Positions 3,176-47,681 of a stretch of 64,000 bases of DNA are shown piece after piece. The DNA comes from Alteromonas sp. CI.11.F.A3. Its GTDB lineage: Bacteria > Pseudomonadota > Gammaproteobacteria > Enterobacterales > Alteromonadaceae. Both the position numbers and the translations under genes were made by a program. The stretch lies in assembly GCF_032925565.1 (NCBI RefSeq), contig NZ_CP136708.1, positions 2,232,001 through 2,296,000 on the forward strand, in the 5' to 3' direction. Under the pieces are notes generated by a model. It ran no database searches and was not told the origin of the DNA. It worked only from the letters and a program-made list of their open reading frames with translations. Numbering within the stretch: the first letter of the stretch is position 1; each line of letters begins with the position of its first letter.

Positions 3176-3320
3176 GCGCTCATTAAGTGATGGTAGCGGG
3201 CTCCCTCAGTGTTCAGGAAAGTAACGCTTCCATTCTCAGCAAACTATCACCTACCGGTGTTTTTTACCCATGTGTTTGCATTTGTCTTTTCGACAGATAT
3301 GGGTTCAGAATTTTAATAAA

Positions 3321-3345
3321 AGCCCCGCTAGTCCGGGGCTTTTTG
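3321..3345 (+). terminator. Rho-independent terminator inside the rimP leader
   Basis: Perfect stem AGCCCCG/CGGGGCT with the loop CTAGTC, followed by a T run. It stands about 90 bases before rimP on the same strand, so it must be read through or regulated for the operon to be expressed. Confidence 0.8.
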
Positions 3346-3393
3346 TTGTATTAGACCCTGGAGTCAGCCTAGCTGAGCTAGGTGATGACAGGT

Positions 3394-3412
3394 GGGCTTA
3401 AGGCCCTTTTTT
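3394..3412 (+). terminator. Second terminator-like hairpin directly before rimP
   Basis: GGGC-TTAAG-GCCC followed by six T, ending only a few bases before the rimP ribosome-binding site (GGAGG at 3420-3424). The stem is short, so it may act as a weak attenuator rather than a strong stop. Confidence 0.5.
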
Positions 3413-3430
3413 CGTTTTTGGAGGTTTGCA

Positions 3431-9644: not shown

Positions 9645-9658
9645 ACGCGCTTCATTCC

Positions 9659-9686
9659 GTCTGGCTGAATTAGTGATCGGCCGGAC
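9659..9686 (+). promoter_or_regulatory. Hairpin in the rpsO leader, possible S15 autoregulation site
   Basis: GTCTGGC at 9659-9665 pairs with GCCGGAC at 9680-9686 (seven pairs, one G-U), ending shortly before the AGGAG of rpsO. S15 represses its own mRNA in E. coli and other bacteria through differing leader structures. This stem is the only obvious candidate here; its role is inferred. Confidence 0.45.
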
Positions 9687-9704
9687 ATAATTTAGGAGAA
9701 TGTT

Positions 9705-9974
9705 ATGTCACTAACTAAAGACGAAACTGCAACAATCATTGCTGATTATGGCGTAAAAGAAGGTGATACTGGTTCACCTGAAGTTCAAGTTGCGTTGTTA
9801 ACTCACAACATCAACAAGCTTCAAGGCCATTTTGCTGATCATAAGAAAGACCACCACTCACGTCGCGGTCTTCTACGTATGGTTAGCCAGCGTCGTAAGC
9901 TTCTAGACTACCTTAAAGGCAAGAACGCTGAGCGTTATCTTGACCTAATTAAGCGTCTTGGCCTACGTCGATAA
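9705..9974 (+). CDS. rpsO: 30S ribosomal protein S15
   Basis: 89 residues, the same length as E. coli S15 and nearly identical in the core ([24 protein letters not shown]). It is a primary 16S-binding protein that organises the central domain of the 30S subunit. AGGAG lies eight bases before the ATG. A strong terminator follows at once. In many gammaproteobacteria pnp follows rpsO; here it does not, and a DUF898 gene comes next. Confidence 0.99.
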
Positions 9975-36260: not shown

Positions 36261-36677
36261 TTACTTACCTAAAGCAAAACGTGTATCTGCGTCGCGAAGT
36301 ATATAAAGCGCAAAACATGCCGCCCACATTGGCCATGCAGCGAAAAATAACAAGTTATTGAAGGCATCAAAGTATTGTGCGAAAGCCGACAACGTAGATC
36401 CGCCGTGAAGCAAGAAAATTAAACCGTAGGTGTAACGCTTTGCTATACCGGCAACGAAAGCAAGGACTAATGCCAACTGAAATGCACCTAAAATGTACAC
36501 GGCCGTCTCTGGTACGCCACCAATTGAATAAAAATGTTGAAAGATTTTCATGCTGTGTGCAGGGTTAACGAATTTGTCTAATGTCCATACGAACATAACA
36601 ATGAAAACAGAAACACGAAGGGCGAGTAGAGACCAACTGAGGCGATTAGAAATATCAGTGGTTTGTTGAGATTGCAT
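36261..36677 (-). CDS. DoxX-like small membrane protein
   Basis: 138 residues with four membrane segments (about 14-33, 60-80, 85-100, 110-130) and the DoxX-like spacing (LRVSVFIVMFVWTLDKFVNPAHSMKIF, AFQLALVLAFVAGIAKR). Function unknown. It is divergent from TonB receptor 2 and shares a 150-base intergenic region with it, so the two may share regulation. Confidence 0.7.
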   Translation of the reverse strand: MQSQQTTDISNRLSWSLLALRVSVFIVMFVWTLDKFVNPAHSMKIFQHFYSIGGVPETAVYILGAFQLALVLAFVAGIAKRYTYGLIFLLHGGSTLSAFAQYFDAFNNLLFFAAWPMWAACFALYILRDADTRFALGK

Positions 36678-36830
36678 TGTAACTCCTATTTATTTGTGTA
36701 GCGATAAAGAACGGGCGTTTTCATATTAAATTTCAAAAACTTTCATAGAAAAAAATAAATATGCTTATGAAATATTTTTAGCCGGGTGTCGGTCTTGTCG
36801 AGTAAGCAATCTTGTAAGGTAAAAATACGA

Positions 36831-39194
36831 ATGAAAAATAATATTGGGCTTGCCATCAGTGCACTGGCTCTATCTGTAAGCCAAGGGCTGCAAGCTCAGC
36901 AAGCTGACACGCTTGATACCATCGATGCAAATGACATAGAAGTCGTTGAGGTTACTGGAAATCAGCAAGCGCTAAACCCGTTAAACCCTGGCGACAATAC
37001 GCTAAGTGGTTTATTTGGCGCTGGGATGTCGGCAGCCGATACGCCACGAGCAGTAACGTCTTTATCGGCTGAAGCTATGGATGCGCTAAACATCAATACC
37101 TTACATGATATTGTTAAAGCCGCGCCGAACGCCTATGCATCTAGCGGTTTTGGTACGCCTAGCTTGCCTAGTATTCGTGGCCAGTTGGGGGAGCTATTCC
37201 AAGATGGTATACGTCGTCAGTCGGGTAACAACGGTTTTGGTTTACCGGTTTCTTTCAACAGTGTTGAACAATTAGATGTGGTTAAAGGTCCATCGCCAGT
37301 ACTTTTCGGTAGTACACAGCGAAATGGCGGCTTTGTGAATCTGCAAACCAAAACCGCCCCAACAGCAGGAACCGAAGGCAATATCACATTAAGAGCTGGG
37401 CGCTGGGATCAATATTCAGCGCAGCTTGATTATGGTACTGCCATTGAAGAAGGCAAAAGCGGTATTCGAGTAAGCGCTGAATGGTTAGATCACGATAGCT
37501 TCTTTGATTTTGCAGAGCGTGAAAGCAAAAACCTGTTCATTGCATATAGATACACACCGAGTAATGCTACAACCTGGGATATAAGCGCAGAATACTATGA
37601 TGCCGAGTACCCAGATATTGCAGGTATTAATCGCCCCACGCAAAACCTGATTGATAACAACCTTTATATAACAGGCCAAGGTGTACAAGCGAATGGCAGT
37701 ACCGTACCTGGTGCTGGCGCTATTATTTCGCCTACCGGTGAAGTGGTTATTCCCCGCAGCCAAGTTTATACCCATCCTGATGATATTAATGGCGCTGAGT
37801 CTGCCGTTCTTCGAAGCAACTTATCTCATCAGTTTTCAGACAGCCTTGTATTACGAAACATGACGTACTATCAGCACCTTACCCGTGAAGAGATTGCACA
37901 AAATAGTTTTGTAGAGATTATAGATGGTGCCGATGCGTTCGAGAATCGCACTGAATTAGATGTGGTTTGGAATGATAAGCAAACTACCACATTCGGTTTA
38001 GCGCTGCGTTACAACGATGTTTTAGGTTACAGCCAGTTTACGACTGAAGCTGACAGTCCAGTAGATTTAACTGGTCCGTTAAGTAATCGCGTAATTCCGT
38101 TAACCGATGCACAGAAAGCCCGCTTGGTTGAGCTTCGCCCCGGTATTTTTGTTTCACCTGGTGGACAGTACGATGTAGATGGCGATGGTGCAGGGGATTA
38201 CAATCTATCTGACACTACCGATTCAACCACCCTACAAACTGGCTTAGCGTTTCAGCAGCGCTCTCAATGGACAGAATCGTTTTCAACCATTGCCGGTGTT
38301 AGATTTGACTATTACGATGTAGAAGCGCGAGATCCGCTTGCTCCTGAAGGTGTCGTTGCGGCTTCTGACACTTATAACGATATACTTGAAAGCGTACAAC
38401 TAAGTGCGGTGTACAAGCTGACAAAATCACTTAATGCTTATGTGGCGTGGTCAGAAAATGATGCCACGTCTAATAGCATGGCTGGTGGCACCACACTTAC
38501 CAGTGCAAACGAAATCAACCCGCTAAACTTTGCCACTGAAAATACCCTTTATGAAGTAGGGCTCAAGTATTCTCCTGATAGTCATTGGTATGGTGAGGTA
38601 TCGGTGTTTGATCAGACACGTAGCCTACGTAACCGTGATGGTAGTAACAGTGGCGTAAAAACCAAAGGCGCTGAGCTACAAGTTTTCTACCAAGGGCAAG
38701 ATGTATGGGTAAATGCGGCATACAGTTATTTAGATGCACGCTTTGATGATTCGGCCTCTTTCCAAGATACCGCGCAAATCGCCGATGCTTTTGACGATAG
38801 CCGACCAGATATTATTGAAGGTAATGGTGTAGGGTCGCCGTCTTTTGCAGCGTTTGCTCCGTCTGACTCGTTAGTGCAGGGTATTCCATCGCAAATAGTG
38901 TCAATTAATGCTGGCTGGCAACTTACCGATGATTTACAAATTGGTGCCTCGGCCTTATACACTAAGTCGTTCCCACTCGACTTTCTACAAACCGTATTTA
39001 TTCGAGACCAAATCAACATTGATGTAAATGCCGATTATCAAGTTAGTGATGATATGCGCCTACGTGTTGATGTTATTAATATTACCGATGAAGAGAATTG
39101 GCAGCCTGTGTTTGAGGGGGGCTACTTCGGCGCTACCTTGGCTATGCCGAACACGCCTCGCCACGTTCAATTCACTATGCAATACGCGTTTTAA
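36831..39194 (+). CDS. TonB-dependent receptor heading the ynjBCD-like operon
   Basis: 787 residues from ATG 36831 (AAGG upstream; the product then has a signal peptide ending near QGLQAQQ). Plug at about 50-170 (DTPRAVTSLSAEAMDALNINTLHDIV, LPSIRGQLGELFQDGIRRQSG, LDVVKGPSPVLFGSTQRNGGFVNLQ). The barrel ends in Phe (HVQFTMQYAF). The RGQLGELFQDG variation and long loops differ from receptor 1. It is first in a run of eight same-strand genes with gaps under 25 bases; the downstream ABC transporter suggests it feeds its substrate to YnjB-like. No Fur box seen upstream, so the ligand may not be iron. Confidence 0.87.
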   Translation: MKNNIGLAISALALSVSQGLQAQQADTLDTIDANDIEVVEVTGNQQALNPLNPGDNTLSGLFGAGMSAADTPRAVTSLSAEAMDALNINTLHDIVKAAPNAYASSGFGTPSLPSIRGQLGELFQDGIRRQSGNNGFGLPVSFNSVEQLDVVKGPSPVLFGSTQRNGGFVNLQTKTAPTAGTEGNITLRAGRWDQYSAQLDYGTAIEEGKSGIRVSAEWLDHDSFFDFAERESKNLFIAYRYTPSNATTWDISAEYYDAEYPDIAGINRPTQNLIDNNLYITGQGVQANGSTVPGAGAIISPTGEVVIPRSQVYTHPDDINGAESAVLRSNLSHQFSDSLVLRNMTYYQHLTREEIAQNSFVEIIDGADAFENRTELDVVWNDKQTTTFGLALRYNDVLGYSQFTTEADSPVDLTGPLSNRVIPLTDAQKARLVELRPGIFVSPGGQYDVDGDGAGDYNLSDTTDSTTLQTGLAFQQRSQWTESFSTIAGVRFDYYDVEARDPLAPEGVVAASDTYNDILESVQLSAVYKLTKSLNAYVAWSENDATSNSMAGGTTLTSANEINPLNFATENTLYEVGLKYSPDSHWYGEVSVFDQTRSLRNRDGSNSGVKTKGAELQVFYQGQDVWVNAAYSYLDARFDDSASFQDTAQIADAFDDSRPDIIEGNGVGSPSFAAFAPSDSLVQGIPSQIVSINAGWQLTDDLQIGASALYTKSFPLDFLQTVFIRDQINIDVNADYQVSDDMRLRVDVINITDEENWQPVFEGGYFGATLAMPNTPRHVQFTMQYAF

Positions 39195-39214
39195 GCGCAA
39201 TTAAGGAATAAAAC

Positions 39215-41368
39215 ATGTTCAAGAAAATTGCACTTGTCGCCGTGTTGGTGGCTGCCGTTATTGGCTTTTTTTACTTTGATCTAAATACCTATCTTACCCT
39301 TGAAGGGTTGAAAGGGTCATTAGATACCTTCACACAACAAATTGAAGAAAACCCACTTGTGAGTATTGGTGTGTTCTTCGCGATTTATGTGGCAGTAACG
39401 GCTTTGTCGTTGCCTGGTGCAGCCATTCTTACCTTAGCCGCAGGTGCTTTATTTGGGCTGGTGCAAGGCTTTATTATTGTGTCTTTTGCTTCAAGCGTAG
39501 GGGCTACCGTAGCCTTTTTAGTTGCACGCTTTATTCTGCGCGATACGGTAAGAAAGCGTTTTGGCGAAAAGCTTAAAAAGATTGATGAAGGTGTTGAAAA
39601 GCAAGGTGCCTTTTACCTGTTCACGCTGCGTTTAGTTCCCGTGTTCCCGTTTTTTCTAATAAACCTATTAATGGGTTTAACATCTATTAAAACATGGACA
39701 TTCTACTGGGTAAGCCAAGTCGGTATGTTGGCTGGCACCGTGGTATACGTGAATGCGGGTACGCAGCTTGCGCAAATAGACAGCTTGTCGGGCATTGTAT
39801 CGCCGGGGCTTATTTTATCGTTTGTATTACTCGGTATATTCCCGTGGATTGCTAAGGCCATTGTGGCATTTGTTGAACGCCGCCGCGTTTACAAAGGCTA
39901 TAAAAAACCCGCTAAATTTGACAGAAATCTTATTGTTATTGGTGCTGGCGCGGGTGGCTTAGTCACCAGTTATATCGCTGCAGCGGTAAAAGCAAAAGTA
40001 ACGCTAGTGGAAGCCGGTGAAATGGGCGGTGACTGTTTGAACTATGGTTGCGTACCAAGTAAAGCCCTCATCAAAACTGCCAAAGTAGCTAACCAGATGC
40101 GTAACGCTGAAAATTACGGTTTGCACGGTGTTGAACCTACTATGTCTTTTAAAACAGTGATGCAGCGTGTGCATAACGTCATTGCTACGATTGCGCCAGT
40201 AGATAGTGTAGAGCGTTACACAGGTTTGGGTGTAGATGTAGTGAAAGGCTACGCAAAAATTATCGACCCTTGGACGGTAGAAATTAAGCAAAACGACGGC
40301 GGCATGCAAACCCTAACCACCAAAAGCATTGTCGTGGCGACAGGTGCAAGCCCATTTGTACCACCGTTGCCGGGTATTGAAGAGAGCGGCTATGTAACAT
40401 CTGATACTTTGTGGAGCCGTTTTGCTGAGTTAGATGAAACCCCTAAACGCATGATTGTATTAGGTGGCGGCCCAATTGGGTGTGAACTAGCACAAGCCTT
40501 CGCACGCTTAGGCAGTGAAGTAACCCAAGTTGAACGTGCACCGCACCTTATGGGCCGAGAAGACAAAGAAGTCGCTGAATTTTCAGAAGACGTACTCCGC
40601 GATAGTGGCGTGAACGTATTAACCAGCCACGACGCCCTTCGTTTTGAAAATAAAGATGGCGTTAAAACCCTTGTAGTCGCCAAAGACGGCAATGAAAGCG
40701 CGATTGAATATGATGAAGTCATCGTGGCGGTAGGGCGTAAAGCACGTCTTGACGGCTTTGGTTTAAAAGAGTTAGGCATTCAGTTTGATCGCACTATCGA
40801 AACCGATGAATACCTACAAACCTTAATGCCAAATATTTTTGCGGCGGGCGATGTAGTAGGGCCGTATCAGTTTACTCACGTTGCGGCACACCATGCATGG
40901 TATGCCGCGGTAAATGCCTTGTTTGGTACCTTCAAAAAATTCAAAGTAGATTACCGTGTTATCCCATGGACGACCTTTATCGACCCCGAAGTGGCACGGG
41001 TAGGCCTTAATGAAAACGATGCAGCAGAGCAGGGTATTGACGTTGAAGTAACTCGCTACGAGTTTGAAGAGCTTGATAGAGCCATTGCTGAGAGCGCAAT
41101 TAAAGGTTTCATTAAAGTACTTACTCCGCCGGGCAAGGATAAAATTTTAGGGGTAACCATTGTTTCTGAACACGCTGGTGATTTATTAGCAGAATTTGTA
41201 TTAGCCATGAAGCACGATTTGGGCTTAAACAAGTTACTCGGCACTATTCACGCGTACCCAACGTGGGCTGAAGGGGCTAAAAACACCGCAGGTACTTGGA
41301 AGCGTGCGAATAAACCAGAAAAGTTACTAAGCTATGTGGAAAAATTCCACACGTGGCGTCGTGGTTAA
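39215..41368 (+). CDS. TVP38/TMEM64 membrane domain fused to a mercuric-reductase-like flavin disulfide reductase
   Basis: 717 residues in two parts. Residues 1-225 are a DedA-like TVP38/TMEM64 membrane domain (FAIYVAVTALSLPGAAILTLAAGALFG, LRLVPVFPFFLINLLMGLTSI). Residues 236-710 are a class I pyridine-nucleotide disulfide oxidoreductase: FAD site VIGAGAGGLVTSYIA, redox pair in GGDCLNYGCVPSKALIK (Cys274/Cys279), NAD site MIVLGGGPIGCELAQAFARLG, FAAGDVVGPYQFTH, and the C-terminal dimer domain HAYPTWAEG. The vicinal-Cys tail of true MerA is not present and there is no HMA domain. Such fusions exist in gammaproteobacteria; the substrate is not known. Second gene of the operon. Confidence 0.9.
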   Translation: MFKKIALVAVLVAAVIGFFYFDLNTYLTLEGLKGSLDTFTQQIEENPLVSIGVFFAIYVAVTALSLPGAAILTLAAGALFGLVQGFIIVSFASSVGATVAFLVARFILRDTVRKRFGEKLKKIDEGVEKQGAFYLFTLRLVPVFPFFLINLLMGLTSIKTWTFYWVSQVGMLAGTVVYVNAGTQLAQIDSLSGIVSPGLILSFVLLGIFPWIAKAIVAFVERRRVYKGYKKPAKFDRNLIVIGAGAGGLVTSYIAAAVKAKVTLVEAGEMGGDCLNYGCVPSKALIKTAKVANQMRNAENYGLHGVEPTMSFKTVMQRVHNVIATIAPVDSVERYTGLGVDVVKGYAKIIDPWTVEIKQNDGGMQTLTTKSIVVATGASPFVPPLPGIEESGYVTSDTLWSRFAELDETPKRMIVLGGGPIGCELAQAFARLGSEVTQVERAPHLMGREDKEVAEFSEDVLRDSGVNVLTSHDALRFENKDGVKTLVVAKDGNESAIEYDEVIVAVGRKARLDGFGLKELGIQFDRTIETDEYLQTLMPNIFAAGDVVGPYQFTHVAAHHAWYAAVNALFGTFKKFKVDYRVIPWTTFIDPEVARVGLNENDAAEQGIDVEVTRYEFEELDRAIAESAIKGFIKVLTPPGKDKILGVTIVSEHAGDLLAEFVLAMKHDLGLNKLLGTIHAYPTWAEGAKNTAGTWKRANKPEKLLSYVEKFHTWRRG

Positions 41369-41384
41369 TAAGCGAGTAAATATT

Positions 41385-42314
41385 ATGTTTCCTATTAATG
41401 CGATAAAGCTAAAAAAAACAGCGCTAGAGTCAACCTTAGCGTCAAGGTTAGCTTCATATGCAATGGGTGCGTTACTACTGGTTATGCCAGTGGTAGCTCA
41501 CGCTGAAGCTTCTCTACACCAACCCTTTTCAGCAATGCTAGCTAAATACGTTGTGCCTATTAACCCTGTTGATAAAGGCAGGGGGGATGGAGAGGCGGAC
41601 TTGCAAGGTATAAGCTCTAAAGGCACGAGCACACAAGTTGTTTATTCGGGCTTTAAATCGTCTCAAACTGAACTCACTGCTTATCTAAAGAGCTTATCAG
41701 CAGTGTCACAAGATACGTTTGAACAGTGGGATCAAAACACGCAGTTAGCGTTTTTAATTAATGCGTACAATGCGTATACCATCGATTTAATATTAACTCG
41801 CTACCCTGATTTAACCTCTATTCGTGACATTGGGGGTTTCTTTTCGTCACCATGGAAACAAGAGTTTGCTGTGTTATTGGGTAAAAAACGCAGCCTTGAT
41901 GATATAGAGCACGGGCTCATTCGTGAAAAGGGTGTGTATAACGAACCTCGTATTCACTTTGCGGTAAACTGCGCGAGTATTGGTTGCCCTGCATTACGTG
42001 AAGAAGCCTATGTGGGCGATAAGTTAGATGAACAATTAGAACAGCAAACCGTTCGTTTCTTATCTGACAATAGCCGCAACTATTACGATGGGAATACGCT
42101 ACACATTTCGAAAATTTTCAGTTGGTATAAAGACGACTTCGAAATGAAATGGCGTGATTCATCAAGCCTCAATGGGTTTCTTGCTCATTATGGCAGTGCA
42201 TTATCATCCAACGATGGTAAGTCACTTGATAACGATGACATAAAAGCGATTAAGTCTGGTAATAGCGAAATTGAGTTTTTGGATTACAACTGGGCATTGA
42301 ATGACCAAGAGTAA
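41385..42314 (+). CDS. DUF547 protein, periplasmic
   Basis: 309 residues from ATG 41385, which puts the signal peptide (ASYAMGALLLVMPVVAHAEA, cleaved near 43) near the N terminus. A longer reading from 41334 overlaps the reductase gene. DUF547 motifs: AFLINAYNAYTIDLIL, FFSSPWKQEFAVLLGKKRSLDDIEHGLIR, RIHFAVNCASIGCPALREEAY and ISKIFSWYKDDF. The Cys-containing NCASIGCPAL and His suggest a cysteine-based active site, but the function is unknown. It overlaps the next gene by 14 bases. Confidence 0.85.
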   Translation: MFPINAIKLKKTALESTLASRLASYAMGALLLVMPVVAHAEASLHQPFSAMLAKYVVPINPVDKGRGDGEADLQGISSKGTSTQVVYSGFKSSQTELTAYLKSLSAVSQDTFEQWDQNTQLAFLINAYNAYTIDLILTRYPDLTSIRDIGGFFSSPWKQEFAVLLGKKRSLDDIEHGLIREKGVYNEPRIHFAVNCASIGCPALREEAYVGDKLDEQLEQQTVRFLSDNSRNYYDGNTLHISKIFSWYKDDFEMKWRDSSSLNGFLAHYGSALSSNDGKSLDNDDIKAIKSGNSEIEFLDYNWALNDQE

Positions 42315-43725
42315 TTTAATGTTAGCGGCGTTAGGCAGTTTGTTTCGTCTAACGCCACTGTGCCTGTTTACTACCCCAACTGTAAAACCAAGATCGACTG
42401 TAAATGTACAATCAGTTATTCATGTAGCAGTTCAAGTGACAGGCCTCTTAAAAACCGTATTTACCGCAATAGCCGTCGCCATGCTTGCAACGGCGTTAGC
42501 TTATGGATCGGAAGCTGCACAATCGCTAGGTCAAATAAACCCTGAAGTTCAAACAAGCACTCGACTAAAAGGCCAGCCTCAAAATCAATCACCAGCTTCT
42601 AATCAAAAGCTAGGCGATTCGCCTACCGTGCAGTTTCATGCGTGGGGCGGCAGTGCCCAAGTGAATGGATATATTCAGTGGGTAGGCCAGCAAGTAAGTG
42701 ACCAATATAATATTACCTTGAACCATGTGAAACTAGCCGATACCAGCGATGCGGTATCTCGGGTACTCGCTGAAAAAGCGGCGGGTAACAACAACCAAGG
42801 TAGCGTTAACTTAATTTGGATTAATGGCGAAAATTTTGCTGCCATGAAACGCCACGATTTATTATTGAAAGACTGGGCTAATAGCATTCCTAATTTTGCC
42901 CTCACGAACCCGGCTCGTAACCCTGCTATGATCACCGATTTTGGTATTGCTACCGACGGGCAAGAAGCACCGTGGGGCAAGGCATCTATGGTATTTTATT
43001 ATAATAATCAGTTTGTAGAAAATCCTCCGCTCAATATTCATGAATTACTTGCCTTTGCCAATCAATACCCGGGTCGATTTACTTACCCATTACCCAACGA
43101 TTATTTAGGCATCAGCTTTTTAAAGTATGCGGCCATAGCGTTAAATCAAGATCATCAAGACTTGCTGTATAAGCCGGTAACTGACAACGCATTAACGAAA
43201 ATCATCCCCGTGCTTTTTGAATATTTAGATGCGTTACACCCTCTGATGTATAAAGAGGGGGACTATATGGTACGCCAAGCTTCGCAACTTCAGCGTTTAA
43301 TGGGAACCAGCGAATTATTGTTGGCATTTTCGTTTACCGCCGCCGAAATACCCAGTGCAGTAAACCGATTTGACTTACCTAAAAGCATTCGCACTTACGC
43401 GATGCAAGATGGCAGCTTAGCGAACGTGCATTTTATCGGCATTACCTATAACACCGAAAATGTTGCAGCGGCTAAGCAAGTGGTGGATTTTTTATTATCT
43501 CCTCAAGCACAAGCAAAAAAGCAGCAGTTGGCGGTATGGGGTGACGATTCAGTACTTGATTTTTCCATGCTAGCTGCCCACGACAAAGCGTTGTTTAAAC
43601 CCATATCACACCATGCTTCTGCACTTAACAAAGAAAAGACAGTACCACTTTTCGCTGAACCTCATAGCAGTTGGACAGATGCGATACGACAAGCGTGGTT
43701 TGCACGCTATGGTGAGCGTTTCTGA
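42301..43725 (+). CDS. YnjB-like ABC transporter substrate-binding protein
   Basis: 474 residues. The ATG at 42301 lies inside the end of DUF547; a later start is possible, as the first 40 residues are unusual before the hydrophobic segment VFTAIAVAMLATALAYG (about 55-70). The mature part starts with VQFHAWGGSAQVNGYIQWVGQQVSDQYNI, like E. coli YnjB, and shows a bilobal binding-protein pattern (VNLIWINGENFAAMKRHDLL, APWGKASMVFYYNNQ, NRFDLPKSIRTYAMQDGSLANVHFIGI). It belongs with the ThiB/AfuA-type proteins. The ligand of YnjB is not established. The stop overlaps the permease ATG by one base. Confidence 0.85.
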   Translation: MTKSNLMLAALGSLFRLTPLCLFTTPTVKPRSTVNVQSVIHVAVQVTGLLKTVFTAIAVAMLATALAYGSEAAQSLGQINPEVQTSTRLKGQPQNQSPASNQKLGDSPTVQFHAWGGSAQVNGYIQWVGQQVSDQYNITLNHVKLADTSDAVSRVLAEKAAGNNNQGSVNLIWINGENFAAMKRHDLLLKDWANSIPNFALTNPARNPAMITDFGIATDGQEAPWGKASMVFYYNNQFVENPPLNIHELLAFANQYPGRFTYPLPNDYLGISFLKYAAIALNQDHQDLLYKPVTDNALTKIIPVLFEYLDALHPLMYKEGDYMVRQASQLQRLMGTSELLLAFSFTAAEIPSAVNRFDLPKSIRTYAMQDGSLANVHFIGITYNTENVAAAKQVVDFLLSPQAQAKKQQLAVWGDDSVLDFSMLAAHDKALFKPISHHASALNKEKTVPLFAEPHSSWTDAIRQAWFARYGERF

Positions 43726-45608
43726 TGTCGGTTCTAATGTCTGTGCTTTCACGAACTCAATGGCTTCGCAGCATGACGCTTTTTCAACGTATAACGGTGA
43801 TTGTACGGGTGTTACTTATTTTGCTGTTAAGCCTGCCGGTATTGGCGGGGCTAATTGGCGTGGTGTTACCTGCCTTTGGTTATTTTCCGGCACTGGATGC
43901 TCATCATTTTACCTTCAGTGTTTTTGCTCAGCTATTTGCGATAGATGGCATGGGTAAAATGGCATTGTTATCGTTTTCCACCGGCTTATTAGCCACCATG
44001 ATTTCCGTTGCGAGTGCCTTTTTGCTCTTGGCGGTGTTTTATCGTTCATCCTATTTAAACAAGCTACAAACTTGGTTAAGTCCGCTATTAGTCTTGCCCC
44101 ATGCGGCTGCGGCCATTGCGCTGTTGTTTGTACTTTCACCTTCAGGCTTCTTTTCGAGCATTGTTACAAATGTGAGTAACATACTAAGTAGTATAGGGAT
44201 AAGTGAAGCAACAAATGTAGATGGCGCCAGCACACTATTGCCGCCGATGTGGGCATTTCCGTACGACAGTTACGGTATATCTATTATTATTGCGTTGGCA
44301 CTTAAAGAACTGCCTTTTGTGTTTTTAATGGCAGTAAGTGTGATGTCGCAGCCACACGTTAAACGTAAGTTAGACGGTTATTTTAATAGTGCAACGGCGC
44401 TAGGATACTCGCCGGTAACCGTGTTCTTTAAAACCGTTTTCCCCATCGTGTATCCCCAAGTACGTTTACCTATATTGGCGGTGTTAGCTTATGCTACGGC
44501 GAATGTGGAAATTCCTTTATTGTTAGGCCCCAATAACCCGCCCACGTTAGCCGTGGCGGTAGTGCAATGGTTTAATCATGTAGATTTGTCGATGCGCTTT
44601 CAGGCATCGGCGGCTGCATTGCTTCAAGTCGCTGTAACTTTAGTGGCTATTAGTGTATGGATAGTGGGTGAAAAAGTAGCGAAGCATACACAAGTTCGCT
44701 TCTATTCAAATGGGCATCGGCATACAGGGCAAACTCTTAGCACCATAGTCGCCTACGCCATAGTGGCCATTTATACGCTGCTAATACTCTCGATAATCAT
44801 CAGCACGATATTGTGGTCTGTTGCTACCTTTTGGCAGTTTCCAGCTTTTTTACCAGAAGGTTTTACTTTGCTGCATTGGAAAACCACGCTTGCTGCGCTG
44901 GCCGAACCTTTCAACAATACCGTATTGCTTGCTGTGTTAGTGAGCGGTTTTTCGGTGATAGTGGCTACATTGGCGTTAGAAGCAGAATCTTTAAACGGCA
45001 ATAGCGGCAATATCGCGGATAACGGGCATAAAAGTAATCCCTCATCTTACTTTAACGGTTGGGCAGGGGCGTTGCTGTCACTTACTTTGTTTTTACCACT
45101 GCTAGTACCAGGCGTCGCCTTCTTATATGGCCTAGTATGGTTTCAATTAGCCTATTTCAACGAGGCAGTGTGGTTTCATTTGTTTATTAGCCACCTTGTG
45201 TATGTTTTGCCTTATGTGTTTATTTCGTTAGCGGTGGCTTATCGTAAGTTTGACCCTAGATATATTCAAGTTGCCTACGGCATGGGAAAAACGCCATGGC
45301 AGGTGTTTGTAAAAATAAAACTACCCTTATTGTTTGCTCCCATGCTGGTGGCTTATGCGTTAGGGCTTGCCATTAGTTTTAGCCAATATTTGCCTACCTT
45401 ACTAAGTACCGGTGGGCGTATTGCTACCGTTACTACAGAAGCGGTGGCAGCGGCTTCGGGCAGCAGTGCTAGGTTAACAGCGGTGTACGTGATAGTACAA
45501 ACGCTTATGCCCTTACTAGGCTTTATATTGGCGTGGTGGCTACCCACAATTTGTTTTAACCCGATGGGGCGCTATACGCTTCTGCAAACAAGGAAATCGA
45601 AATTATGA
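43725..45608 (+). CDS. YnjC-like ABC transporter permease, two fused domains
   Basis: 627 residues, longer than E. coli YnjC (511). About 12 membrane segments in two homologous halves, each with a BPD-transporter EAA-like loop: YFNSATALGYSPVTVFFKTVFPIVYPQVRLPIL in the first half and KFDPRYIQVAYGMGKTPWQVFVKIKLPLLF in the second. Fused permeases of this kind occur in thiamine (ThiP) and ferric-iron (FbpB) transporters. It overlaps its neighbours on both sides (1 base with ynjB-like, 4 bases with ynjD-like), so the operon is translationally coupled. Confidence 0.88.
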   Translation: MSVLMSVLSRTQWLRSMTLFQRITVIVRVLLILLLSLPVLAGLIGVVLPAFGYFPALDAHHFTFSVFAQLFAIDGMGKMALLSFSTGLLATMISVASAFLLLAVFYRSSYLNKLQTWLSPLLVLPHAAAAIALLFVLSPSGFFSSIVTNVSNILSSIGISEATNVDGASTLLPPMWAFPYDSYGISIIIALALKELPFVFLMAVSVMSQPHVKRKLDGYFNSATALGYSPVTVFFKTVFPIVYPQVRLPILAVLAYATANVEIPLLLGPNNPPTLAVAVVQWFNHVDLSMRFQASAAALLQVAVTLVAISVWIVGEKVAKHTQVRFYSNGHRHTGQTLSTIVAYAIVAIYTLLILSIIISTILWSVATFWQFPAFLPEGFTLLHWKTTLAALAEPFNNTVLLAVLVSGFSVIVATLALEAESLNGNSGNIADNGHKSNPSSYFNGWAGALLSLTLFLPLLVPGVAFLYGLVWFQLAYFNEAVWFHLFISHLVYVLPYVFISLAVAYRKFDPRYIQVAYGMGKTPWQVFVKIKLPLLFAPMLVAYALGLAISFSQYLPTLLSTGGRIATVTTEAVAAASGSSARLTAVYVIVQTLMPLLGFILAWWLPTICFNPMGRYTLLQTRKSKL

Positions 45609-46240
45609 CCTTGAAGTTAGATAGGGTGAGTTTGTTTCGATACACAGATACCTTGCTTTCACTCGATGAAGTAATCAACCCTGGCGAAGTGCTGTCTATC
45701 ATGGGGCCAAGCGGCTCTGGCAAATCGACCTTATTGAACGCGATTGCCGGGCAGTTAACTGCGCCTTTTTCCATGACAGGAAGTATATACATTAATGATA
45801 AGTGCATTGATGACATGCCAGCTCATAAACGTGGGGTAGGCGTGCTATATCAAGATCCTTTGCTTTTTGAACATATGACTGTTGGGCAAAATATTGCGTT
45901 TGCATTGCCTTCTAGTGCGCTTAATAAAACGCAGCGCGAGCAACGGGTTAGTGAAATGTTAGTCGAAGTGGGGCTTAACGATTTACAACACAGACCCGTA
46001 CAGACCTTATCAGGCGGGCAACAGGCGCGTATCGCGTTGTTACGAACTTTGGCTGCGGCACCAAGTGTGGTGTTACTCGATGAGCCATTTAGTAAATTAG
46101 ATGCTACCACCAAAACTCAAATGCGAACCTGGGTATTCGGTCAGCTTAAAGCTCGTGGGCTACCTACTTTGTTAGTTACGCACGACAATGAAGACGTAGA
46201 AGCTGCCCAAGGGCAATTAATAGAGATAGAAACATGTTAG
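45605..46240 (+). CDS. YnjD-like ABC transporter ATP-binding protein
   Basis: 211 residues (E. coli YnjD 217). Walker A GPSGSGKST at 34-42, Q-loop YQDPLLF, signature LSGGQQARIALLR, Walker B VVLLDEPFSKLD and the switch His in LLVTHDNEDVEAA are all present. The short single-domain form without a C-terminal regulatory extension matches YnjD and ThiQ. The ATG overlaps the permease stop (ATGA) and the stop overlaps the next gene by seven bases. Confidence 0.93.
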   Translation: MTLKLDRVSLFRYTDTLLSLDEVINPGEVLSIMGPSGSGKSTLLNAIAGQLTAPFSMTGSIYINDKCIDDMPAHKRGVGVLYQDPLLFEHMTVGQNIAFALPSSALNKTQREQRVSEMLVEVGLNDLQHRPVQTLSGGQQARIALLRTLAAAPSVVLLDEPFSKLDATTKTQMRTWVFGQLKARGLPTLLVTHDNEDVEAAQGQLIEIETC

Positions 46241-46893
46241 ACGCTAAAGTTACGCCTTATATAAAGCCGCTGTTAAGGCCCATGATAGTGGCGCTTAGCA
46301 AAGCCTGCGTTACCCCAAATCAAGTTACCTTGGCTGGTTTTGTTATTGGTATGTTGGCGGTTCCTGCCATTATTAATGGGTGGTGGGTATTGGCGTTCAT
46401 TTGTATCATAGCGAACCGAGTATTCGACGGTATAGATGGCGAACTTGCTCGCTTTCAGCAAAGTAGCAGTAGTGCAGGTGGCTTTTTAGATATTTGTTTA
46501 GACTTTCTATTTTACGCGGCAGTACCGTTAGCATTTGGAATTGCAAACCCTAGTGAATGGGGCGTACCTGCGTTAGTGCTAATGGCCGCGTTTGTAGGAA
46601 CGGGCAGTAGCTTTTTGGCCTTCGCCGTCGCCGCAGAAAAATTTAATATAGAAAAACCACAGTTCAAGAATAAGAGTTTTTATTATATGCAGGGGCTCAC
46701 CGAAGGCACCGAAACCATACTCTTGTTTTTAGCATTTTGTACATGGCCGGCATATTTTCCGGTGTTGGCTTATGTTTTCGCGGCAGCATGTGGCATTACC
46801 ATCATAACCCGAGTTTACAGTGGTTTTACCACCCTTAAAGCCGTAGAAGGCATTGATGACTACTGTAGTAACAAAGAAAAAGAGAAGTCATAG
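46234..46893 (+). CDS. CDP-alcohol phosphatidyltransferase family protein (YnjF-like)
   Basis: 219 residues with about six membrane segments. The complete active-site motif is seen as DG-EL-AR, eight residues, G, three residues, D, three residues, D (FDGIDGELARFQQSSSSAGGFLDICLDF). Members move a phosphoalcohol onto or from CDP-lipid. In E. coli ynjF also lies next to ynjBCD-ynjE, and the same order here supports a functional link to the transporter. Neither substrate is known. The stop overlaps the next start by one base. Confidence 0.9.
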   Translation: MLDAKVTPYIKPLLRPMIVALSKACVTPNQVTLAGFVIGMLAVPAIINGWWVLAFICIIANRVFDGIDGELARFQQSSSSAGGFLDICLDFLFYAAVPLAFGIANPSEWGVPALVLMAAFVGTGSSFLAFAVAAEKFNIEKPQFKNKSFYYMQGLTEGTETILLFLAFCTWPAYFPVLAYVFAAACGITIITRVYSGFTTLKAVEGIDDYCSNKEKEKS

Positions 46894-47681
46894 TGGATAA
46901 CACTGCACTTGTTCGAGTTAGTCTATTTTTAGGCATATTCGCGATAATGGCTCTGCTGGAAGCATGGCTGCCAGCGAGGCAATCGGTATTGGGGCGCGCC
47001 AGCCGGTGGAAAGGCAATCTGAGTATGGTGGTATTAGGTGCGCTGTGTTCAAGAGTAGTGTTGCCTGCCAGCTTAGTAGGTGTGGCCTTGTGGGCTGATA
47101 ATACTAATGTGGGGTTATTCAACAGCCTAAATATGAGCCACTGGGTTCTGGTCGCTTTTAGTGTATTGCTGTTAGATATGGTGATTTATTGGCAGCATCG
47201 GCTATTTCATAAAATTCCTCTTTTATGGCGTATTCATAAAATGCATCACGCTGACAGCCACGTAGATACCACCACAGGGCTTCGCTTTCACCCTATCGAA
47301 ATTATATTAAGCTTATTCATTAAAGCGGTGGTGGTTGTCGCTTTTGGGGTACCTGCTGTTGCGATAGTTATTTTCGAAGTGGGTTTGAATGGGTTTGCCC
47401 TGTTTAACCATGCAAATATTCGACTGCCACAGAAGTGGGATGACAGAATTGGGATGCTTATTATTACCCAGCGGTTGCATCGCATTCACCACAGCCAGCG
47501 TAAAGAAGAATCTAATACTAACTTTGGCTTCAGTGTGTCTTGGTGGGACAAGCTATTTGGTAGTTTTAAAAGCCGTGCAACCATGCGTGATGAAGATATT
47601 GCTATAGGCCAAAAAGATTACCCAGCAACCAACGATAATGCAGGCATAATAGCTTTATTGAAAATGCCATTTAATCGCTAA
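46893..47681 (+). CDS. Sterol-desaturase-like fatty acid hydroxylase superfamily protein
   Basis: 262 residues from GTG 46893, overlapping the previous stop by one base. Four to five membrane segments. The di-iron histidine boxes are clear: HRLFH, HKMHH (residues near 115), and HRIHH near 200, matching the superfamily order HX3H, HX2HH, HX2HH. Superfamily members hydroxylate or desaturate lipids. Together with the phosphatidyltransferase-like gene it suggests lipid modification. Last gene of the eight-gene operon; a 12-bp perfect palindrome follows at 47683. Confidence 0.9.
   Translation: MDNTALVRVSLFLGIFAIMALLEAWLPARQSVLGRASRWKGNLSMVVLGALCSRVVLPASLVGVALWADNTNVGLFNSLNMSHWVLVAFSVLLLDMVIYWQHRLFHKIPLLWRIHKMHHADSHVDTTTGLRFHPIEIILSLFIKAVVVVAFGVPAVAIVIFEVGLNGFALFNHANIRLPQKWDDRIGMLIITQRLHRIHHSQRKEESNTNFGFSVSWWDKLFGSFKSRATMRDEDIAIGQKDYPATNDNAGIIALLKMPFNR

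Follow-up and report, generated by a model that had tools for sequence, protein, structure and literature searches.

In Escherichia coli K-12, YnjBCD is annotated only as a putative ABC transporter. The ydjXYZ-ynjABCDE run that encodes it also includes the DedA/TVP38-family proteins YdjX and YdjZ, as well as YdjY, YnjA and YnjE, with products annotated as putative, and ynjF lies beyond ynjE on the opposite strand. We analysed a related locus in a 64,000-nucleotide stretch (the window) of the complete 4.66 Mb chromosome of Alteromonas sp. CI.11.F.A3 (contig NZ_CP136708.1). Here, eight genes in a row encode a TonB-dependent receptor, a fusion of a VTT (TVP38) membrane domain with a flavoprotein disulphide reductase (hereafter, the fusion), a DUF547 protein, YnjB, YnjC, YnjD, YnjF and an FA_hydroxylase-superfamily enzyme, and a DoxX-like gene is divergent from them. 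The window holds a full YnjBCD-YnjF set, with permease, ATPase and YnjF alongside YnjB, and the closest YnjB protein is also from Alteromonas (93% identity). The first-pass annotation had likened the gene order to that of E. coli, and this was correct for ynjB-C-D but not for ynjF. The E. coli run likewise has YnjBCD, TVP38-family proteins and YnjF, but it is without the TonB receptor, DUF547, the fusion and FA_hydroxylase.

To compare gene order, YnjB neighbourhoods were taken from the best 80 of 582 confirmed relatives by YnjB alignment, and from a 299-genome sample drawn evenly from the phylum, in which 31 genomes had YnjB above the family cut-off. Three of 114 loci without a clustered YnjB were left out, leaving 111; open reading frames came from a simple script, so that start positions and gene complements are approximate for GC-rich loci. 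The full eight-gene order was found in at least 18 loci (17 relatives and the window), with gaps of up to 125 nt, in Alteromonas, Salinimonas, Pseudoalteromonas, Shewanella and kin of Colwellia. Near-complete loci lacked only the last gene (L033, L068) or only the receptor (L031), and in L037 the operon genes were present in a different order. The genes are thus not scattered in Alteromonas-type bacteria and, judged by gene order, the eight-gene operon is real and conserved, as the first-pass annotation had proposed. Psychrobacter loci mostly consisted of DoxX, the fusion, YnjBCD and YnjF, some with FA_hydroxylase, and were without the receptor and DUF547. Halomonas-type loci commonly held an APH-family phosphotransferase, YnjBCD, relatives of TIGR04283 and TIGR04282, the fusion and a SelD-N-like reductase. 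YnjC was present in 105 of the 111 YnjB loci, and the DoxX cluster in 24 loci. The proposed tie of ynjF to ynjBCD was borne out in the 299-genome sample, where YnjF was found in 29 of 31 YnjB genomes compared to 6 of 268 others, including genomes in which the two are unlinked. In one YnjB-less genome (L225:7266-10313), YnjF is convergent with genes for an ABC binding protein of the PnrA-like (Bmp) type and a permease; this pair is probably part of a purine operon and possibly another nucleoside-type importer.

The Halomonas-type transferases scored above the cut-offs of two families that NCBI names arsenosugar biosynthesis glycosyltransferases (TIGR04283, 265 against 182 bits; TIGR04282, 159 against 134 bits; one representative each), and we therefore compared the loci around ArsS. 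ArsS (TIGR04167, cut-off 300) was above its cut-off in 112 of the 299 genomes, and TIGR04283 in 126, mostly of the ArsS type. Across 20 ArsS loci, the fusion, DUF547 and relatives of TIGR04283 and TIGR04282 recurred, and a relative of FA_hydroxylase appeared once. To count partners, we used 45 full-length fusions from the 299 genomes (alignments starting no later than residue 44 and reaching the end, with an identity of at least 51%), leaving out rows that matched the flavoprotein part only or had 37-42% identity, including G018. Within 6 kb, 12 of the 45 had YnjB, YnjC or YnjF, 17 had ArsS, an ArsM-like or a further radical SAM gene, and none had both kinds of partner. The ArsS-adjacent fusions had 55-66% identity. 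Their loci differ from the operon in carrying ArsS or a radical SAM gene related to it, sometimes with an ArsM-like gene (173 and 181 bits, below the curated cut-off of 263); DUF547 was found in 5 of 27, a relative of FA_hydroxylase in 1 of 27 and YnjF in none. No YnjB genome contained ArsS (0 of 31; ~12 expected if independent), which may be explained by relatedness. Within the class, all 8 ArsS genomes had the fusion (p=3e-5). In a quick tree of 83 fusion proteins, in which row L132_11328 (branch length 10) probably does not represent a true fusion and L032 is tagged as partnerless since its YnjB frame was missed, YnjB- and ArsS-linked copies interleaved, with at least five changes of the YnjB label. 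The Alteromonas-Psychrobacter clade fell within a larger, weakly supported group (SH-aLRT 86) that included fusion-DUF547 pairs from ArsS genomes. Also seen near the fusion, in L158, L161, L162 and L169, was a second radical SAM family that differs from ArsS (two members scored 48 and 38 bits with TIGR04167); an ArsM-like gene accompanied it once and an SSS-type symporter at the remaining three loci.

In two fusion genomes without YnjB and ArsS, YnjF adjoins the fusion. One of these loci (L154) has the order SelD-N-like reductase, fusion, DoxX-like gene, 432-residue protein and YnjF, and Pfam identified the 432-residue protein as a concentrative nucleoside transporter (CNT; Nucleos_tra2_C 1e-62, Gate 7e-12). 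Among 199 genomes searched in that family, 29 had the fusion, and the 25 full-length copies were analysed, leaving out four genomes with partial matches; 17 of the 96 genera covered by the search have retained the fusion. CNT was present at 22 of the 25 loci, in 21 of them on the strand of the fusion. Nucleos_tra2 N, C and Gate were over the Pfam cut-offs in two CNT representatives, the other 20 being assigned by BLAST clustering. YnjF was clustered at 20 of the 25 loci (BLAST found it within 8 kb at all 22 CNT loci), the SelD-N-like reductase at 14, a DoxX-like protein at 9 (by clustering; its representative had no Pfam match) and a TonB receptor at 6 (representative checked with Pfam). DUF547 was found at only 1 of the 22 CNT loci. 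By gene content, then, CNT occupies the place of YnjBCD in an otherwise similar operon. The redox part that the first-pass annotation placed in the route is present in the operon but is not private to it, being common to ArsS/ArsM-like and CNT loci. DUF3047-type proteins also occur at all three kinds of locus (ArsS: L124, L129, L130, L132; YnjB: L030, L069, L084; CNT: L276).

Upstream of the receptor gene, the element TGAAA-N18-GGTC(T/A) was found in 17 of 21 receptor loci, compared to 0.02 expected from Markov shuffles, always with a spacing of 18 and never of 12-17 or 19-24. We take this to be the form of a promoter read by an extracytoplasmic function (ECF) sigma factor, making it a putative ECF-type element. 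A looser form, for which the pattern was relaxed after the sequences had been viewed, faces DoxX in 9 of 14 loci with both DoxX and the TonB receptor (0.045 expected). In the window's genome, the exact element matched 19 times, compared to 8 for a reversed control. Besides the operon, seven matches lie 31-180 nt upstream of genes, which from their sequences encode DsbD-, glutathione reductase-, DsbC-, MsrP-, MlaC- and cupredoxin-like proteins and a Cys-rich precursor followed by an MbnB-type enzyme (Pfam). Five of these sites (G000:C1 346517, 675756, 1825346, 2732860 and 3985640; L180, L183, L186, L190 and L195) precede the DsbD-, glutathione reductase-, Cys-rich/MbnB-, MsrP- and DsbC-like genes. 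The other matches are within long frames or upstream of short or unknown frames. Two relatives showed a small excess over the reversed control (16 vs 11 and 11 vs 7), with recurrence of only the DsbD-like gene in one and only the Cys-rich gene in the other. The element may therefore mark an ECF thiol and metal stress regulon. A search for an ECF sigma gene for the element found only distant ones; in L132, L155, L161, L168 and L169 an ECF sigma gene lies no more than 6 kb from the fusion, the one in L161 having been checked individually.

ArsS is understood to make a nucleoside by linking a 5'-deoxyadenosyl group with a methylated arsenical, and CNT transporters carry nucleosides. The exchange of neighbours therefore suggests that the compound reaching the fusion/YnjF core, like the cargo of YnjBCD, is of the nucleoside or riboside class, and that this one class of metabolite is supplied by YnjBCD in some bacteria and by ArsM/ArsS or CNT in others. 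The likeness of YnjF to inositol-phosphate-type synthases would suit a polyol or riboside head group. Our preferred reading, held tentatively and at less than even confidence, is that the operon is an uptake and membrane-processing module for a nucleoside- or riboside-type compound, induced via an ECF sigma factor under envelope thiol, oxidative or metal stress. Gene content and its conservation, co-occurrence, the promoter-like element in common and the exchange of neighbours are observations, whereas the substrate class, the direction of the steps, the lipid product and the sigma factor are inferred. The TonB receptor would pass the compound through the outer membrane, YnjB would capture it in the periplasm and YnjCD would import it. 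The membrane-anchored VTT-flavoprotein, with DUF547 outside, would reduce or otherwise handle it at the membrane, YnjF would add a phosphatidyl group to the compound or its alcohol, and FA_hydroxylase would modify the resulting lipid. Induction would probably come from an ECF sigma factor that answers such envelope stress. Elsewhere, the same core would be fed by ArsM/ArsS-type synthesis or by CNT. The complete route in the first-pass annotation was thus recovered as to its import side (receptor, binding protein and ABC importer), redox side and lipid side, whereas the reduction and attachment to lipid are predicted steps. The leading candidate for a concrete substrate is an arsenosugar or its nucleoside precursor. 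A bolder extension, which we consider rather unlikely, is that YnjBCD-YnjF is the scavenging counterpart of arsenosugar and arsenolipid synthesis. Marine and, by extension, enteric bacteria would import arsenosugars or arsenonucleosides produced by algae and ArsS bacteria, reduce them at the membrane and incorporate them into phospholipids, with one undescribed core fed by ABC import, CNT import or ArsM/ArsS synthesis.

The promoter-like element and the genes behind it also speak for a different account, in which this is a thiol/oxidative or metal stress operon that repairs the membrane or imports a protective redox compound, arsenic and nucleosides being incidental. The regulons of Caulobacter sigma-F under metal stress (PMC3511200) and Haemophilus RpoE2 under hypochlorite (PMC7907618) have a similar make-up, sharing a DUF692-type enzyme, DoxX, and MsrP or other methionine-sulphoxide repair genes. 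Changes of 1.6-fold for E. coli ynjA and 1.4-fold for ynjB in a BaeR table (PMC2731931) point the same way. The sigma-F promoter differs, however (GTAACC-N16-CGAA; PMC3511200), and the regulon descriptions in the parts of the sigma-F and RpoE2 reports that we consulted include no such uptake operon. Moreover, regulation gives the occasion and not the substrate, a receptor with an ABC importer or CNT implies a definite solute, and the genome-wide excess of the element is modest in all three genomes. We regard this account as rather unlikely. A thiamine or iron/siderophore uptake operon is far less probable. The name 'putative thiamine transport system substrate-binding protein' is attached to some homologues, and the solved receptors nearest by sequence, although weak matches, are the pyochelin receptor and another siderophore receptor (E 2e-9 and 6e-9). 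However, no TPP riboswitch reached the Rfam gathering score in the window, YnjD fell below the ThiQ cut-offs (145 bits vs 245 for the thiQ model) and the upstream element is not a Fur box by eye. The first-pass annotation had seen no Fur or TPP element and had doubted an iron or thiamine substrate; its doubt about thiamine is supported, and the conserved ECF-type promoter-like element at that position is a new observation.

Under another account, YnjBCD imports phosphonate, polyamine or another small organic ion, and the shared core serves general envelope repair. The corresponding models scored far below curated cut-offs, sugar-binding proteins tied in Z against the YnjB model, and the exchange with ArsS and CNT is left unexplained. 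We consider this account rather unlikely. It is also conceivable, though we give it little credence, that the import half and the redox/lipid half have separate functions and merely share one promoter. In agreement with this, the fusion-DUF547 pair was found without YnjB- or ArsS-type neighbours in 8 of the 45 loci, and YnjBCD-YnjF occurs without the fusion in genomes of the same taxonomic order (L013, L014, L016, L017, L021 and L024). Against it, the fusion and YnjF are united with a CNT importer in another family, and the tree indicates repeated joining of the fusion to YnjBCD loci.

Several observations weigh against the preferred reading of a module for nucleoside- or riboside-type compounds. 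The CNT arrangement, found in a single family, is probably one event. Two CNT representatives reached only 268 and 272 bits against the NupC/NupG cut-off of 442 (TIGR00804), so these proteins may not carry ordinary nucleosides, and our confidence is slightly lowered. Small nucleosides can pass porins, so that a TonB receptor is not obviously needed; its presence hints at a compound that is larger or scarcer than a nucleoside. The predicted YnjB structure did not separate ligand classes. The fetched flanks of 62 of the 111 YnjB loci were without the fusion, and 16 of the 45 fusion genes were near neither kind of partner, a count that may run high as L152 and L171 end at contig borders; DUF547 lies beside the fusion in 8 of these 16. 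Co-occurrence counts ignore relatedness, the fusion-ArsS association over the 299 genomes is weak (23 of 45, p=0.046), and within the class the separation of YnjB from ArsS does not reach significance (0 of 23 YnjB genomes, with 8 ArsS genomes; p=0.10). The window's genome has no ArsS (TIGR04167, best E=3e-7), ArsM (NF008823, 60.7 bits vs 263) or TIGR04283 protein (59.3 bits vs 182) over cut-off, a result expected if the compound is imported but not if it is synthesised. The changes of ynjA and ynjB in the BaeR table also fit a stress role.

The coordinates of the features are listed in Table 1. Every open reading frame was found where the first-pass annotation had placed it, the domain names agreed with Pfam and NCBIfam, and the junctions from the receptor to the last gene (+20, -35, -14, -1, -4, -7 and -1 nt) accord with its description of overlaps or gaps under 25 bases; the -35 becomes +16 nt if DUF547 begins at ATG 41385. 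The receptor frame opens at GTG 36786, but this codon is covered by the promoter-like element, so the true start is probably ATG 36831. A CxxxxC motif is visible in the fusion. The flavoprotein part is similar to lipoamide dehydrogenase and mercuric reductase, and scores below both cut-offs. MerA was rejected as an identity (TIGR02053, 376.8 bits vs 454). A C-terminal Cys pair is a feature of MerA, and none was visible when the fusion sequence was read by eye. In DUF547, two invariant Cys are arranged as CxxxxC in an alignment of 19 sequences, and comparison of its structure model with solved structures found no close one. A script search of the DUF547 proteins of these loci found the pair as CASxGC in 30 of 36, recalling the CxxxxC of the flavoprotein. 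The AlphaFold2 model of YnjB (pLDDT 85) has a binding-protein fold. YnjF has, by eye, the D..DG..AR..G...D...D motif of CDP-alcohol phosphatidyltransferases and is nearest to archaetidylinositol-phosphate and phosphatidylinositol-phosphate synthases; its best NCBIfam match, archaetidylinositol phosphate synthase, scored 69 bits against a cut-off of 180. The last gene, first described as sterol-desaturase-like, belongs to the FA_hydroxylase superfamily, and nothing nearer to a sterol desaturase emerged. An identity as the ornithine-lipid hydroxylase OlsE was rejected (NF052566, 79 bits, far below 475). The same genome also has a second long VTT frame of 756 codons with a poor BLAST match to the fusion (G000:C1:958001-958351; L003, L039), and a glycosyltransferase weakly resembling TIGR04283 (48 bits) directly 5' of a stand-alone TVP38 gene (G000:C1:1849415-1850705; L002, L141). 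Elsewhere in the window, the rimP leader (3282-3413) and S15 leader (9657-9761) RNA families reach Rfam gathering scores.

Table 1. Features of the operon and its divergent neighbour, in window positions.
Feature	Position	Strand	Evidence
DoxX-like membrane protein, divergent	36261..36677	-	Pfam DoxX 22.5 bits, just below cut-off 23.6
DoxX promoter-like element, TGAAA-N18-GTTCT	36708..36735	-	looser pattern
Operon promoter-like element, ECF-type, TGAAA-N18-GGTCT	36768..36795	+	
TonB-dependent receptor	36831..39194	+	Pfam barrel 4e-21, plug 2e-14, both over cut-offs
VTT (TVP38) membrane domain and FAD pyridine-nucleotide-disulphide reductase fusion	39215..41368	+	Pfam VTT 1.5e-25, Pyr_redox_2 2e-63, dimerisation 1.5e-27
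DUF547 protein	41385..42314 (frame opens 41334)	+	Pfam 9e-27; hydrophobic N-terminus by eye
YnjB-type periplasmic binding protein	42301..43725	+	NF008633 426.8 bits, over cut-off 203
YnjC ABC permease	43725..45608	+	Pfam BPD_transp_1
YnjD ABC ATPase	45605..46240	+	Pfam ABC_tran 3.5e-33
YnjF-type CDP-alcohol phosphatidyltransferase	46234..46893	+	Pfam 1.6e-14, 55 bits vs cut-off 22
FA_hydroxylase-superfamily membrane enzyme	46893..47681	+	Pfam 4.8e-29

Among the papers listed in searches of the open-licence PubMed Central literature, with subscription papers outside their scope, none was seen to state this link of YnjBCD with CNT and ArsS-type genes through one core. The analysis narrows the substrate question, and the earlier interpretation of the operon is half right. 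The exchange of YnjBCD for CNT or ArsS-type genes beside one core reduces the possible ligands to a short list that can be tested, and leads us to predict a polar lipid that has yet to be described. Should arsenic be involved, marine heterotrophs would gain a place in the arsenosugar and arsenolipid cycle. If it is not, DUF547, the VTT-flavoprotein and YnjF would still be tied to one pathway.

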